Position numbers and translations under genes: made by a program
Assembly: GCF_029955155.1 (NCBI RefSeq)
Contig: NZ_JAPNOZ010000004.1
Span: forward strand, 191,599 to 255,598
DNA from: Psychrobacillus sp. NEAU-3TGS
GTDB taxonomy: Bacteria; Bacillota; Bacilli; Bacillales_A; Planococcaceae
Direction of reading: 5' to 3'
Length of the DNA stretch: 64,000 bases
In this document: in pieces, positions 1,456 to 34,173 of the stretch
Numbering within the stretch: position 1 is the first letter of the stretch
Layout: every line of letters begins with the position of its first letter
The notes under the pieces: model-generated
Seen by the model: only the letters and a program-made list of their open reading frames with translations
Told to the model about the DNA's origin: nothing
The model's database searches: none

Positions 1456-2483
1456 ATCATACTTTTATTCGCGACAGTAATTTTCCCATTATCAGAAGAA
1501 AGTCGAACTGTATTTGCTCCATTCCCAAACACCGTACGAGAATTCTTTTCACCAAATACACTAACTCGCCCGTGATCTGTTTTAGCGTGTATCGATACAT
1601 CAGTTGGCTTGTTCTCTGTTTCCACTAAGATGCTACCATTATCTGTTTCTAATTGAATCATGCGGTCAAGAGTTGATGTTAGAAGTGTAATACGTCCATT
1701 GTCTGTTTTACCAATAATATGTCCGTTTACATAATCCATGATGATACGCCCGTTATCTGTTTCTGTAATAACTTTTTCTGCATCTACATTGCGTAATTCA
1801 ATTCGTCCGTTATCTGTTTGAGTGGAAAGCTTATCGACCTGTATTTTATCAATTTCAATACGTCCATTATCTGTTTCTACTTCTAAAACTGTAGCGGCAA
1901 ATTCTTTTAAACCAATGCTGCCATTATCGGATGTAGCTTTAATCGCTTTACCAAGCAGTTTTTCTGCTCGAATACGACCATTGTCAGTTTTCATGGTGAT
2001 TGTTGTGTACAGTTTTTTAGGTAGGGCCACATTTACTTTCATCTCTTTAATAAGGAAGATAAAGCTGAAAAACTGGAATTTTTTTGGTTTTAATTGAATT
2101 GATAAAGTATCGTTCAAGACTTCTGCAGTTAGTATGAGCTTTTCATTTTCTCCTACTAGCTCAATAATCGTTTCATCTGTATCAGAAGGAAATACATTTA
2201 GAGAGCCGTAGTCAATTTTCATCGTAACGTTGGAAAAGTTCGATTGTGGAATTCTTGTTACTTTATTTTCAGTCGTCATTTTCTCTTGAATCGGAAACTC
2301 CACTAATTCTTGTGCAATCTCTTTCGGAGAACCGAGTGATGCAGCAATGTCGCTATCCGTTTTTCCATCCTCGCGCCCGTTTATAAAATACTCTCTTATA
2401 TCTGAAAGAATATCGTTTCGTTCTTCAGCTGAAAGTCCCACCAACGCAAGTTCTAATTCAATTAAAAACTGTTGTTCAGTCAT
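1452..2483 (-). CDS. HAAS (DUF1700-like) plus DUF4097 beta-helix protein
   Basis: This 343-residue protein has two parts. Residues 1-65 resemble the HAAS/DUF1700 helical domain that usually accompanies PadR regulators. Residues 88-343 are a DUF4097-type repeat domain. The motif D-N-G-(R/S/K)-(I/V) recurs at D167, 186, 205, 224, 243, 261, 281, 303 and 331, mostly every 19 residues, with a degenerate DYG copy at 91, as expected for stacked turns of a beta-helix. No signal peptide or convincing membrane segment is present, so it is probably cytoplasmic; that is inference. The ATG at 2483 overlaps the padR stop by 8 bp, implying translational coupling. An in-frame GTG 9 bases upstream is possible but has the poorer ribosome site. 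The molecular function of the family is not established. Confidence 0.8.
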   Translation of the reverse strand: MTEQQFLIELELALVGLSAEERNDILSDIREYFINGREDGKTDSDIAASLGSPKEIAQELVEFPIQEKMTTENKVTRIPQSNFSNVTMKIDYGSLNVFPSDTDETIIELVGENEKLILTAEVLNDTLSIQLKPKKFQFFSFIFLIKEMKVNVALPKKLYTTITMKTDNGRIRAEKLLGKAIKATSDNGSIGLKEFAATVLEVETDNGRIEIDKIQVDKLSTQTDNGRIELRNVDAEKVITETDNGRIIMDYVNGHIIGKTDNGRITLLTSTLDRMIQLETDNGSILVETENKPTDVSIHAKTDHGRVSVFGEKNSRTVFGNGANTVRLSSDNGKITVANKSMI

Positions 2484-2799
2484 TTCTTGCACCCTCTTCG
2501 ATTAGATTATTGACACCGTTTGTGAAGTTTTTCCATTCGTTCAATTGCTCATGTAGGTATGTTCTACCAAGTTCTGTTAGCTTGTAGTATTTACGCGGCG
2601 GACCTTCTGTTGATTCCTGCAAATAAGTGGTGAAATATCCTTCCTTCGTTAGGCGTCTTAATAAAGGATAAACAGAGCCTTCCGAAATGGAAATTTGGTC
2701 GGATATTTTTTGGACAAGCTCATAACCATATCGATCTTGTTTATCTAGTAATACAAGTACGCAAAGATTAAGCACACCTTTTTTAAATTGAATATTCAC
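2476..2799 (-). CDS. PadR family transcriptional regulator
   Basis: This is a 107-residue winged-helix repressor of the PadR type. It has the typical opening (QFKKGVLNLCVLVLLD), the recognition segment SEGSVYPLLRRLTKEGYF, and a wing with PPRKYYKLTELGR. The GTG at 2799 is preceded by AAAGGAG at good spacing; longer in-frame extensions lack support. It is the first gene of a two-gene operon with the DUF4097 gene, and PadR plus HAAS-domain partners is a recurrent pairing in Firmicutes. The promoter carries paired inverted half-sites, suggesting autoregulation. The inducing signal is unknown. Confidence 0.88.
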   Translation of the reverse strand: MNIQFKKGVLNLCVLVLLDKQDRYGYELVQKISDQISISEGSVYPLLRRLTKEGYFTTYLQESTEGPPRKYYKLTELGRTYLHEQLNEWKNFTNGVNNLIEEGARND

Positions 2800-2834
2800 T
2801 TCTAATTCACTCCTTTCACTACTGTTCAATAAAT

Positions 2835-2884
2835 AGTACCTTTGAGAACAATATATCACACGGTATTATCTTATGCAAGGTACT
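2835..2884 (-). promoter_or_regulatory. padR promoter with paired operator half-sites
   Basis: On the minus strand TTGCAT (2873-2878) and TATATT (2850-2855) form a sigma-A promoter with a 17-bp spacer. The octamer AGTACCTT (2835-2842) and its exact reverse complement AAGGTACT (2877-2884) bracket it. One overlaps the -35 and the other lies just past the -10, which fits repression by the adjacent PadR protein. That PadR binds here is inference. Confidence 0.55.
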
Positions 2885-2982
2885 GAATAAAATATTATTA
2901 ATTTAGGAGCGGTAATTATTTATCTTGTTTCCTAAAGTAAAAATGACGATTGATTGCAGTTTAATATTTCAATTCGCTATGT

Positions 2983-3434
2983 AGGGATAATGCGTCTTAA
3001 GACAGAGCTATTATGTGTCCGCTGGGATTTTCGCTACAGGGTAGACGCTTTCCGCGGGCACGGCTTCAATCTCCACGTCGCTCACGCTCCTGCGGAGCTT
3101 TCAGCTCTTGCTTTTCATGCTGGAGTCGCCACCCTTTCGCTACAATCCAGTAGAGTTTGCTAATTACTAAGAAATGATGTACTAGATTTCGTACTATATT
3201 GTATTCTATAGGGAAAACCTATGAATAATTGAATGAGACATACTTTAGCAATTATTAGCAAGTTCGATTGATTGAAGAGCAAGGTGGCCACTCCTGTGGG
3301 ATTAGCGAGGCAGGTGAGACCCCGCACGTAGCGTTAGCGGAGGAGGAGGCTCACCGCTCGCCCCACGGAAAGCGTCCGCCTGGAGCGGAAATCATGGCGG
3401 ACATCTTAGGATCTCTTTACGACGCATTATCCCT
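2983..3434. repeat. Inverted-repeat-bounded GC-rich element A
   Basis: This gene-free stretch is framed by a perfect 14-bp terminal inverted repeat, AGGGATAATGCGTC (2983-2996) against its reverse complement (3421-3434). Inside are two GC-rich units of about 125 bp facing each other, 3022-3150 and 3268-3394. Unit 1 is nearly identical to the unit at 21221-21348, and unit 2 resembles 21717-21846 and the reverse complement of 33929-34050. Shared blocks include GACGCTTTCCGCGGG, GCTCCTGCGG and TTTCGCTACAATCCA. I see no transposase, no convincing reading frame and no clear target duplication. A MITE-like mobile element or a structured RNA are both possible. Confidence 0.7.
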
Positions 3435-3567
3435 TTAGAGTGACGGAAAGCTAATAAGAAGTTGACTAATTAGACACTAAAATAAATGCATTACATTAGT
3501 TGGAAAAGTTATAATCATCGGTAGCTCTGAATCAGTTATAATCAAAGTAATGAAAGGATGAGAAATA

Positions 3568-3897
3568 ATGAACCCTTTTACAGAAAGAGTTATGGAAATT
3601 ATACAAGCAATACCACAAGGAAAAGTAATGACATATGGTCAAATTGCAAAAGAAGCTGGAAGCCCAAGAGGGGCAAGACAGGTCGTTAGAATACTCCACA
3701 CGATGAGTGCAAAACACAACCTACCATGGCATCGAGTAATCAATATTAAAGGAGAAATCGTCATTCCGGATGAAGAGATTGCCTATTCACAACGTGCTAT
3801 GTTAGAAGCAGAAGGCGTTTTCTTTCGCTCGAATGGACTTGTGGATCTAAAAAAATCAAGACATGTACCTGAAATTAATGATGTAGATTTAATTTGA
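3568..3897 (+). CDS. Alkyltransferase-like protein (ATL, MGMT family without the acceptor cysteine)
   Basis: This 109-residue protein is homologous to the DNA-binding domain of O6-alkylguanine-DNA alkyltransferase. The helix-turn-helix region (YGQIAKEAGSPRGARQVVRIL) and arginine finger are present. The active-site motif PCHRV reads PWHRV here, with W54 replacing the alkyl-accepting cysteine. This is the hallmark of ATL proteins, which bind alkylated guanine and flag it for nucleotide excision repair rather than removing the alkyl group. Length matches bacterial ATLs. The ATG has GAAAGGATG upstream. The next gene is a Nudix hydrolase 22 bp downstream on the same strand, so co-transcription is likely. 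Confidence 0.9.
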   Translation: MNPFTERVMEIIQAIPQGKVMTYGQIAKEAGSPRGARQVVRILHTMSAKHNLPWHRVINIKGEIVIPDEEIAYSQRAMLEAEGVFFRSNGLVDLKKSRHVPEINDVDLI

Positions 3898-21173: not shown

Positions 21174-21890
21174 TAGGGAAACTACGACGTAAGAAATTTT
21201 ATTGGGTGATTAGGTGACTACTGGGATTTTCGCTACAGGGTGGACGCTTTCCGCGGGCACGGCTTCAATCTCCTCGTCGCTCACGCTCCTGCGGGGCTTT
21301 CAGCTCGTACTATTCCCGCTGGAGTCGCCGCCCTTTCGCTACAATCCATGATGAATAACGCTATCTAATAGACGTCACTGTTTAACAAATGAAACTTCTT
21401 CAAAAGTTTTACAACTATTAAATTCCAATAAATGGTGCAACGCCATACGGGGAACGTGACAAAGCCGAGCAAGCGGAAGCTTTTGAAAGTAATCCTAATT
21501 AATGCTCTATTATTATTGCCATCTCAATTCTAGTTAACTTTTTTTAGGGAAATTGGTTGCTTTCGACAACTGTTTGGTCGCACTTAGCCACTTATTGGAT
21601 TTGCATGGTCAAAAACTGTGGATGATTTTCTTTAGTAAGTCGATCATAAATAACCAGTGAATCAGAATCCATTTATAACTCTGATTACTGCCGAGCTAAA
21701 TTAGCAAGAAGCCTCCATTGATTGAAGCGGAAGGAGGCGACTCCTGCGGGAATCAAGCGGGGCAGGTGAGACCCCGCAGTGGAGCGACAGCGACCGAGGA
21801 GGCTCACCGCCCGCCCCGCGGAAAGCGTCCTCCTAAAGCGAAAATCCTAGCGGCTACCTAATAAAATTTCTTACTGCGCATACTATTTTC
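21174..21890. repeat. Inverted-repeat-bounded GC-rich element B
   Basis: This is the largest of three related elements, about 717 bp. A perfect 15-bp inverted repeat GTAAGAAATTTTATT (21189-21203) and its reverse complement (21860-21874) lie near the ends. Unit B1 (21221-21348) and unit B2 (21717-21846) face each other and start the inverted similarity again with GGATTTTCGCT. B1 is nearly the same as unit 3022-3150. The left outer edge GGAAACTACGACGTAAGA is shared with element C at 33893 except for one base. The middle (21350-21715) is AT-rich, with no gene I can support. Confidence 0.7.
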
Positions 21891-33892: not shown

Positions 33893-34173
33893 GGAAACTG
33901 CGACGTAAGAGATACGGCAAAGGCAATTGATTTCCGCTCCAGGCGGACGCTTACCGCGGGGCGGGCGGTGAGCCTCCTCGTCGCACGCTCCTGCGGGGTC
34001 TCACCTGTCCCGCTGACCCCGCAGGTGTCGCCGCCTTGCGCTACAATCAATGGGAATATCTTGCTCATTTAGTATCCGCATTTAGCAGGATAAAGCCAAG
34101 CCGGCGGAAAGCGTCCACCCTGTAGCGGAAATCCAAGCGTCCACTTCATTCAACTCACTACCGCGCAGTTTCC
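33893..34173. repeat. Inverted-repeat-bounded GC-rich element C (short form)
   Basis: This is a shortened relative of elements A and B. Its ends are GGAAACTGCG (33893-33902) and the perfect reverse complement CGCAGTTTCC (34164-34173). It contains one full GC-rich unit (33929-34050), which matches the reverse complement of unit 21717-21846, and only the outer fragment of the opposing unit (34100-34134). It thus looks like a deletion derivative. Reading frames through it are side effects of its GC-rich sequence. Confidence 0.68.

Follow-up and report, generated by a model that had tools for sequence, protein, structure and literature searches.

A probable MITE-like element of Psychrobacillus carrying two inverted copies of a structured module related to tsr24

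Several kinds of short dispersed repeat offer themselves for comparison with the locus described here. MITEs are short, gene-less and multi-copy and have inverted repeats. Another MITE-type repeat of a Bacillales group, bcr1, is by the title of its description specific to the Bacillus cereus group, and the comparison with it is one of descriptions alone. The same is true of the SPRITE and BOX elements of Streptococcus pneumoniae, which the passages concerned present as clustered, inserted into each other and terminator-like or structured in content; these passages describe no unit such as the one reported below (PMC10969869). The GTAG/CGTC REP elements with RAYT transposases are palindromic, dispersed and often dimeric, and in the part of the source that treats them they measure 20–40 bp and bear a tetranucleotide tag (PMC3733652), whereas the unit considered here is about 125 nt long. 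Lastly, tsr24 (RF02577), a small RNA of Staphylococcus aureus for which a literature search in that species returned no paper, shares a core with this unit, and the model of each finds loci of the other. The Psychrobacillus units differ from tsr24 in that they form inverted pairs within a different kind of element, and our covariance model of the unit, R1, reaches eight families of the class.

The locus lies in a window, by which we mean the whole stretch of 64,000 nucleotides of Psychrobacillus sp. NEAU-3TGS that was analysed; literature searches by sequence string and by term found no description of the element. In our judgment it is probably a MITE-like, non-autonomous element that carries a tsr24-related structured module in two inverted copies. 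It is no artefact; its kind is MITE-like, and its unusual part is the conserved structured module. As in MITEs, the element is short, multi-copy in its own genome and devoid of coding capacity: its sole open reading frame of at least 60 aa (2954–3163, 69 aa) ends 6 bases inside the spacer between the units and has no Pfam match. A related carrier, described below, also has an exact 8-bp duplication. The points of difference from MITEs are that the inverted repeat is internal at this locus, that the search for a parent transposase gave none, and that the element carries a conserved structured module apparently common to unrelated carriers.

From one side to the other, the element consists of an outer end, an inner inverted repeat, a GC-rich unit (GC unit), an AT-rich spacer, an inverted GC unit, the other inner inverted repeat and an outer end (Table 1). 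No clear inverted repeat is visible by eye at the outer ends, 2904 and 3525. The copy sits between divergent genes, padR and the PF01035 gene. At the gathering level Rfam gave 0 matches to catalogued RNAs in the window, and the promoter search in the spacer yielded a single weak promoter-like site in the region, below the shuffled mean.

Table 1. Features of the element, its putative target duplication, its neighbours and the related elements in the window
Feature	Position	Strand	Remarks
Best-estimate inserted element	2904..3525	.	622 bp; also present in P. lasiicapitis
Putative left 8-bp target duplication, TATTAATT	2896..2903	+	TCTTAATC in P. lasiicapitis
Putative right 8-bp target duplication, TCTGAATC	3526..3533	+	TCTGAATC in P. 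lasiicapitis too
Internal inverted repeat, left arm, AGGGATAATGCGTC	2983..2996	+	Family consensus TAGGGAAACTGCGnGGTA
Internal inverted repeat, right arm	3421..3434	-	Exact reverse complement of left arm
GC unit 1	3017..3157	+ in model R1 orientation; tsr24 orientation minus	R1 108.4 bits
AT-rich spacer separating GC units 1 and 2	3158..3259	.	Sequence
GC unit 2, inverted relative to unit 1	3260..3402	-; tsr24 orientation plus	R1 115.7 bits
Second window element, GC unit	21216..21356	+	R1 118.2 bits; left arm ~21174
Second window element, inverted partner unit	21710..21855	-	R1 116.1 bits
Third, shortened window element, GC unit	33920..34058	+	R1 139.2 bits; arms ~33890 and ~34176
PadR-family regulator gene (PF03551)	2476..2859	-	Pfam; reads away from element
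O6-methylguanine-DNA-methyltransferase-like DNA-binding domain gene (PF01035)	3568..3897	+	Pfam; reads away from element

The element is present at this site in some genomes of the genus and absent from others. The closest named loci with an adjoining PF01035 gene belong to Psychrobacillus, and that gene was matched in 16 of 19 genomes of the genus (no match in three). Among these 16, the window genome and P. lasiicapitis alone have units upstream of it. P. lasiicapitis is the closest relative examined (aligned stretches of at least 1 kb are 91.8–97.0% identical) and the sole other holder at the site. In 13 of the 14 remaining genomes, 61–78 nt separate the conserved CAAGGTAC from the PF01035 gene, whereas the two genomes with the element have 692 there; L131, the fourteenth, has a different arrangement, likewise with no unit. 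Seven named loci also lack the element (L043–L049, six of them titled Psychrobacillus and L046 titled Bacillus sp. FJAT-22090); they overlap with the 16 genomes, and the two counts are not additive. An earlier note on this DNA had held that few copies, missing empty sites or missing covariation would argue against a mobile or structured family. The empty sites just described contradict the second of these, and the copy number and the covariation reported below contradict the other two.

The inverted repeat on which that note was built is indeed perfect, 2983–2996 being the reverse complement of 3421–3434 at 14 of 14 bp, and the two facing GC-rich units seen inside it are real. Its role as the boundary of the element, by contrast, fails at this locus: because the genomes that lack the segment also lack about 79 bp to the left of the repeat and about 91 bp to its right, the repeat is internal here. 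The putative 8-bp target duplication at 2896/3526 has five of eight letters equal in the window genome and seven of eight in P. lasiicapitis. The empty loci L128 and L129 read TCTAAATC at the duplication site, and other empty loci differ. The duplication is plausibly real, if eroded.

The element belongs to a dispersed family, as the earlier note had supposed. The resemblance that it pointed out between the units at 3022–3150 and 21221–21348 amounts to 93% identity (91%, ungapped, for 3010–3149 against 21209–21348), and the further units that it grouped with them, at 3268, 21717 and 33929, are related: 3268–3400 is 82% identical to 21718–21853 and 85% identical to 33928–34050 reversed. A genome-wide BLAST search with the whole element gave at least 90 places at E ≤ 1e-3 in its own genome, a figure in which self-inverted copies count with their hits on both strands (of 117 first-look candidates, 40 were scored). 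Elsewhere in that genome, the closest copies over the full length are 97% and 92% identical. The 14-mer AGGGATAATGCGTC occurs there at 15 places with at most one mismatch (4.4 Mb; one place for a reversed-pattern control), and the general arm TAGGGAAACTGCGnGGTA at 63 + 67 places with at most two mismatches (none for the control). At four mismatches the arm was found at 93, 77, 56 and 57 places against 53, 38, 32 and 42 for the reversed control, no more than 1.4–2 times as often, and for this reason arms were trusted solely beside a unit. An automatic rule (both arms at no more than four mismatches, at least one unit, 250–900 bp) is satisfied by 40 elements in 924 kb of the own genome (G000) and 602 kb of P. 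lasiicapitis (G006), at least two of which (G0C11 455607 and G0C2 63718) have a mis-assigned left arm. No autonomous copy was found in these 1.53 Mb of two genomes, where the largest arm pair enclosing a unit spans 850 bp and no transposase for the element was found between paired arms. Among the matches listed of 130 TAGGGAAACTGCGnGGTA-type ends, we saw by eye no arm pair of about 0.9–6 kb, and no ends common to an autonomous transposon were found.

Comparison of the 250-bp flanks of the G000 copies gave 38 similar pairs, the similarity lying mostly in the 45–95 bp that adjoin the repeat. None of these 38 pairs involves the window copy, whose flanks were likewise compared by BLAST with the others; part of its left flank is seen again just once, in P. 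lasiicapitis. Direct duplications adjoining the 14-bp-type repeat were considered and rejected: at offset 0 the agreement in the 40 automatically paired copies equals that of shuffled flanks. From the 80 ends of these 40 copies, 39 were hand-picked and aligned by flank type. Types A and D comprise 19 ends, mutual orthologues among them, and nearly all of these start at the T-run of a terminator hairpin; the hairpins differ from copy to copy and were judged by eye, a few being weak. The window copy does not have this start. The elements may be mosaics, because their outer flanks fall into several types. In P. lasiicapitis, a different subtype of element sometimes occupies the orthologous site, and the third window element is shorter than the copy at the same place in that species. 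Two other P. lasiicapitis copies match the window copy at 98% and 97% identity, against 96% for the orthologue of the window copy. Such subtype differences at orthologous sites suggest conversion as well as transposition.

Other repeats and inserts were seen in these genomes. A second dispersed family of about 120–310 bp, with ends CCCGCATTAACGGGCAG and CCCACTGATTGAAGTTTCACTTT adjoining TTAT/TTTAT, seems to resemble a non-autonomous IS200/IS605-type element. It has copies at G000 C11 53760–54062 (L142) and 74055–74362 (L143) and, in P. lasiicapitis, at the equivalent of window position ~14155, and it accounts for several clean presence/absence differences between the window species and P. lasiicapitis. 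An insert of about 125–128 bp with a palindromic start lies at the stop codon of the PF01035 gene (window ~3892) in P. lasiicapitis (L042 6328–6456) and Psychrobacillus sp. OK032 (L043 6326–6452) and is not in the window. A repeat that starts with AAAGCGCAAGCGCCTATGTCTGCCCCGACAGGC and has GGCGCTGGAGC-like letters near its other end stands at G000 C11 469342, 445881, 369709 and 311953; its first bases are common to one type of GC-unit outer flank and also to an insertion of 74 bp that adjoins a terminator in P. lasiicapitis. At the site corresponding to G000 C2 ~105375 (L185), P. lasiicapitis has a 511-bp putative tRNA gene cluster that the window genome does not have there.

What is widely conserved is the GC unit rather than the element as a whole. 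Model R1 was built from 34 units of several genera, aligned by sequence. In the window it finds five full units at 108–139 bits and one weak match (34005–34142, 15 bits); these five are not an independent test of the model because all of them are among its 34 building sequences. The 34-unit alignment has 29 base pairs, 20 of which show changes on both sides. Pairing holds in 93.2% of cells against 83.1% in shuffles, with none of 500 shuffles as high, and double-change cells number 82 against 19.9. When the pairing partners are slid, 39–55% of cells are paired, a comparison in which the structure is favoured over its slid versions by having been derived from the alignment on which it was tested. 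Covariation in a second set of 103 model-fitted R1 matches (93 distinct), which leans to the model, agrees. The GC unit of about 125 nt folds as a rod whose pairs covary strongly. Many unpaired columns, too, vary little or not at all. In an alignment fitted to one strand, G-U cells outnumber A-C cells by 200 to 37, or by 50 to 36 when two dominating columns are left out. Single units depart no more than mildly from their shuffles in folding energy (z -1.0 to -2.8 in six folds), and the 622-bp segment as single-stranded DNA folds far better than 20 shuffles (z -6.1).

The units also have a fixed arrangement. Among 87 non-overlapping unit hits in the 1.53 Mb of G000 and P. lasiicapitis, 74 form 37 neighbouring pairs and 13 are unpaired. 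All 37 pairs, a count that takes orthologous copies of the two genomes separately, share one inverted polarity, with spacers of 43–503 bp. Among a set of two-unit loci from which four duplicates were excluded, 20 of 21 pairs have that polarity; nine of these are from Psychrobacillus, and 11 of the 12 from other genera agree, some of them with a weak second unit. Single units are common in those genera.

A survey of the class with R1, under stricter filters and with at most 27 candidates scored per genome, gave matches in 26 of 121 genomes, the own genome included; they represent 13 of 72 genera and eight families. The lone Rfam family to match the units at E < 0.1, with lax thresholds and selected loci, is tsr24. 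Its model, RF02577, matches seven places in the own genome, the best at E 7e-6 and 34.9 bits, and all seven lie below the gathering cut-off of 50 by which membership is judged. The homologous core links model positions 129–204 of RF02577 to the GC unit. In the opposite direction, R1 matches all 12 of the tsr24 loci given to it (E 1.5e-17 to 1.5e-4); the nine over the Rfam cut-off have E values of 4.3e-11 to 1.5e-4, and the three below it score best. By these reciprocal sequence matches, the GC unit is homologous to the tsr24 core. RF02577 has 2 to 51 matches in four of the eight genomes given, with the cut-off passed in each; all four are of one genus, which the Rfam label suggests is Staphylococcus. 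It has no match in the remaining four genomes nor in 14 control genomes. Genome G068 is one of the four without a match, and there R1 has 43 matches against 0 for RF02577.

Alignments indicate that the module sits in several carriers with unrelated ends. In genome G016, a search with at most two mismatches within 330 bases of the locus centre found GGGGCTGTCC-type ends on both sides of 13 of 20 fetched copies and on one side of six. At three G016 loci (L259, L260 and L267), the GC unit appears by eye to be inverted relative to the ends of its carrier, as if flipped or separately inserted. Genome G049 has 63 matches; all 14 of its near-identical copies carry GAGGCTGGGACA-type ends on both sides, and their units are followed, by eye, by a terminator-like hairpin. 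A hairpin also follows the unit, by eye, in the nine of nine tsr24 loci viewed, where a script found both GAGGCTGGGACA-type ends in four, one in two and none in three. Among 30 loci of G068, GAGGTTGGGACA-type ends (at most three mismatches) lie on both sides in 12, on one side in 14 and on neither in four. Such short end patterns arise by chance, with an estimated probability of about a quarter per side under equal base frequencies; for this reason, the firm carrier evidence consists of the alignments and the G049 counts alone. In P. lasiicapitis, a 236-bp insertion holding a unit has an exact 8-bp duplication, TGTTAGAC. A hairpin stands immediately before the repeat, by eye, in eight of eight loci of genome G024. 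The carrier ends seem to resemble those of the IS1182 family. Stem-loop replacement in the manner proposed for IS1272, which in the relevant part of the source is suggested to replace stem-loops or to use them as targets on insertion (PMC5678879), would fit the terminator context of the carriers. At a locus in another genus (L224), a group II intron (RF02004, 185 bits, 2040–2252) lies about 400 bases from a GC unit.

Gene context, set by a simple ORF rule, was assigned for the 30 G068 loci. Convergent genes flank the unit in 17, co-directional genes in 13 (nine in the tsr24 direction and four against it) and divergent genes in none, and all 30 loci are downstream of at least one gene end. A hairpin of at least 10 pairs is found within 95 nt after the unit in 27 of 30 loci, against 10 of 30 on the other side. 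That 26 of the 30 units come after a gene of like orientation was discarded as uninformative, given that 17 of the 30 lie between convergent genes, where any orientation fits. As for replication, with arms judged from the GC skew of the 30 loci and one further copy excluded, 34 of 42 G068 copies are co-directional, and so are 13 of 16 among convergent gene pairs. No general replication-strand bias is claimed, because G049 shows none (13 against 11, judged by eye in the 24 of its 27 loci whose skew exceeds 0.02).

We propose that a gene-less element of about 620 bp would have entered the padR/PF01035 intergenic region in an ancestor common to this species and P. lasiicapitis, its movement presumably depending on transposases supplied in trans. 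The module of about 125 nt has probably spread through the Bacilli on board miniature elements of several kinds, and it would be retained for some effect of its fold, exerted most likely by RNA at the ends of genes, a DNA hairpin being the main rival. The earlier note had offered a mobile element or a structured RNA locus; the evidence favours both at once, with the module carried by a mobile element. Selection on the module as transcribed RNA is suggested by other genera (G068, G049 and the tsr24 loci), because the units there follow gene ends and are in turn followed by hairpins. The window copy lends this no support, because it lies between genes transcribed away from it, and the weakness of the promoter-like site in the region argues against an RNA role for that copy. 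In its most far-reaching form, which we advance tentatively and consider doubtful as a whole, the proposal is that a tsr24-like rod is an RNA passenger repeatedly captured by unrelated miniature transposons of the Bacilli. In several lineages, it would have been delivered to gene ends beside or in place of terminators, as a mobile 3'-end RNA module common to many genes, and in Psychrobacillus it occurs in inverted pairs of fixed polarity.

The module may instead be selected as DNA, through a hairpin or cruciform to which a transposase or a host protein responds, in which case the covariation would reflect DNA pairing; this is possible, in our opinion, though less likely than not. The single-stranded DNA fold of the 622-bp segment and the inverted pairs of fixed polarity are in keeping with it, the G-U versus A-C strand test is not decisive, and the position of the window copy between divergent genes, together with the uninformative direction count of G068, makes it slightly likelier. 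Some carriers also abut terminator hairpins, and stem-loops are among the targets proposed, in the part concerned, for IS1272 (PMC5678879). Against this stand the catalogued status of the relative tsr24 as a small RNA, by its Rfam label, and the carriers with unrelated ends: because they share the module, a single transposase is unlikely to need it. It is unlikely that the GC units are passive debris, that is, functionless palindromic parts of old miniature elements left by nested insertion and gene conversion. Debris of this kind would agree with the different subtypes at orthologous sites and with the closer likeness of the window copy to two other P. lasiicapitis copies than to its orthologue. 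Compensatory changes across genera, however, are not expected of decaying palindromes, and the many invariant or nearly invariant unpaired columns likewise weigh against it.

Two further alternatives concern the extent and origin of the segment. That the 14-bp repeat is the true terminus of an ordinary miniature element, 2983–3434, seems quite improbable to us. It is the strongest inverted repeat, its consensus is far commoner in the genome at two mismatches than the control, and BLAST found no outer sequence common to the window copy and the other flanks. Nevertheless, the genomes without the segment also lack the outer 79 and 91 bp, many other copies share 45–95 bp outside the repeat, and in the 40 paired copies the letters just outside the two arms, compared at offset 0, show no better agreement than do shuffled flanks. 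An ancestral segment deleted in the other species, a reading for which the imperfection of the putative target duplication leaves some room, is very improbable: the same stretch would have to be lost in 13 genomes, and the sole other holder is the closest relative examined.

If the module works as RNA, one folded sequence would have been placed at many gene ends of the Bacilli by unrelated mobile elements, and the catalogued staphylococcal small RNA tsr24 would represent a single branch within a broad family of repeats. With a covariation-based model, these repeats could be annotated. Such a model would also make it testable whether elements carry RNA modules because the modules aid the persistence of the elements.
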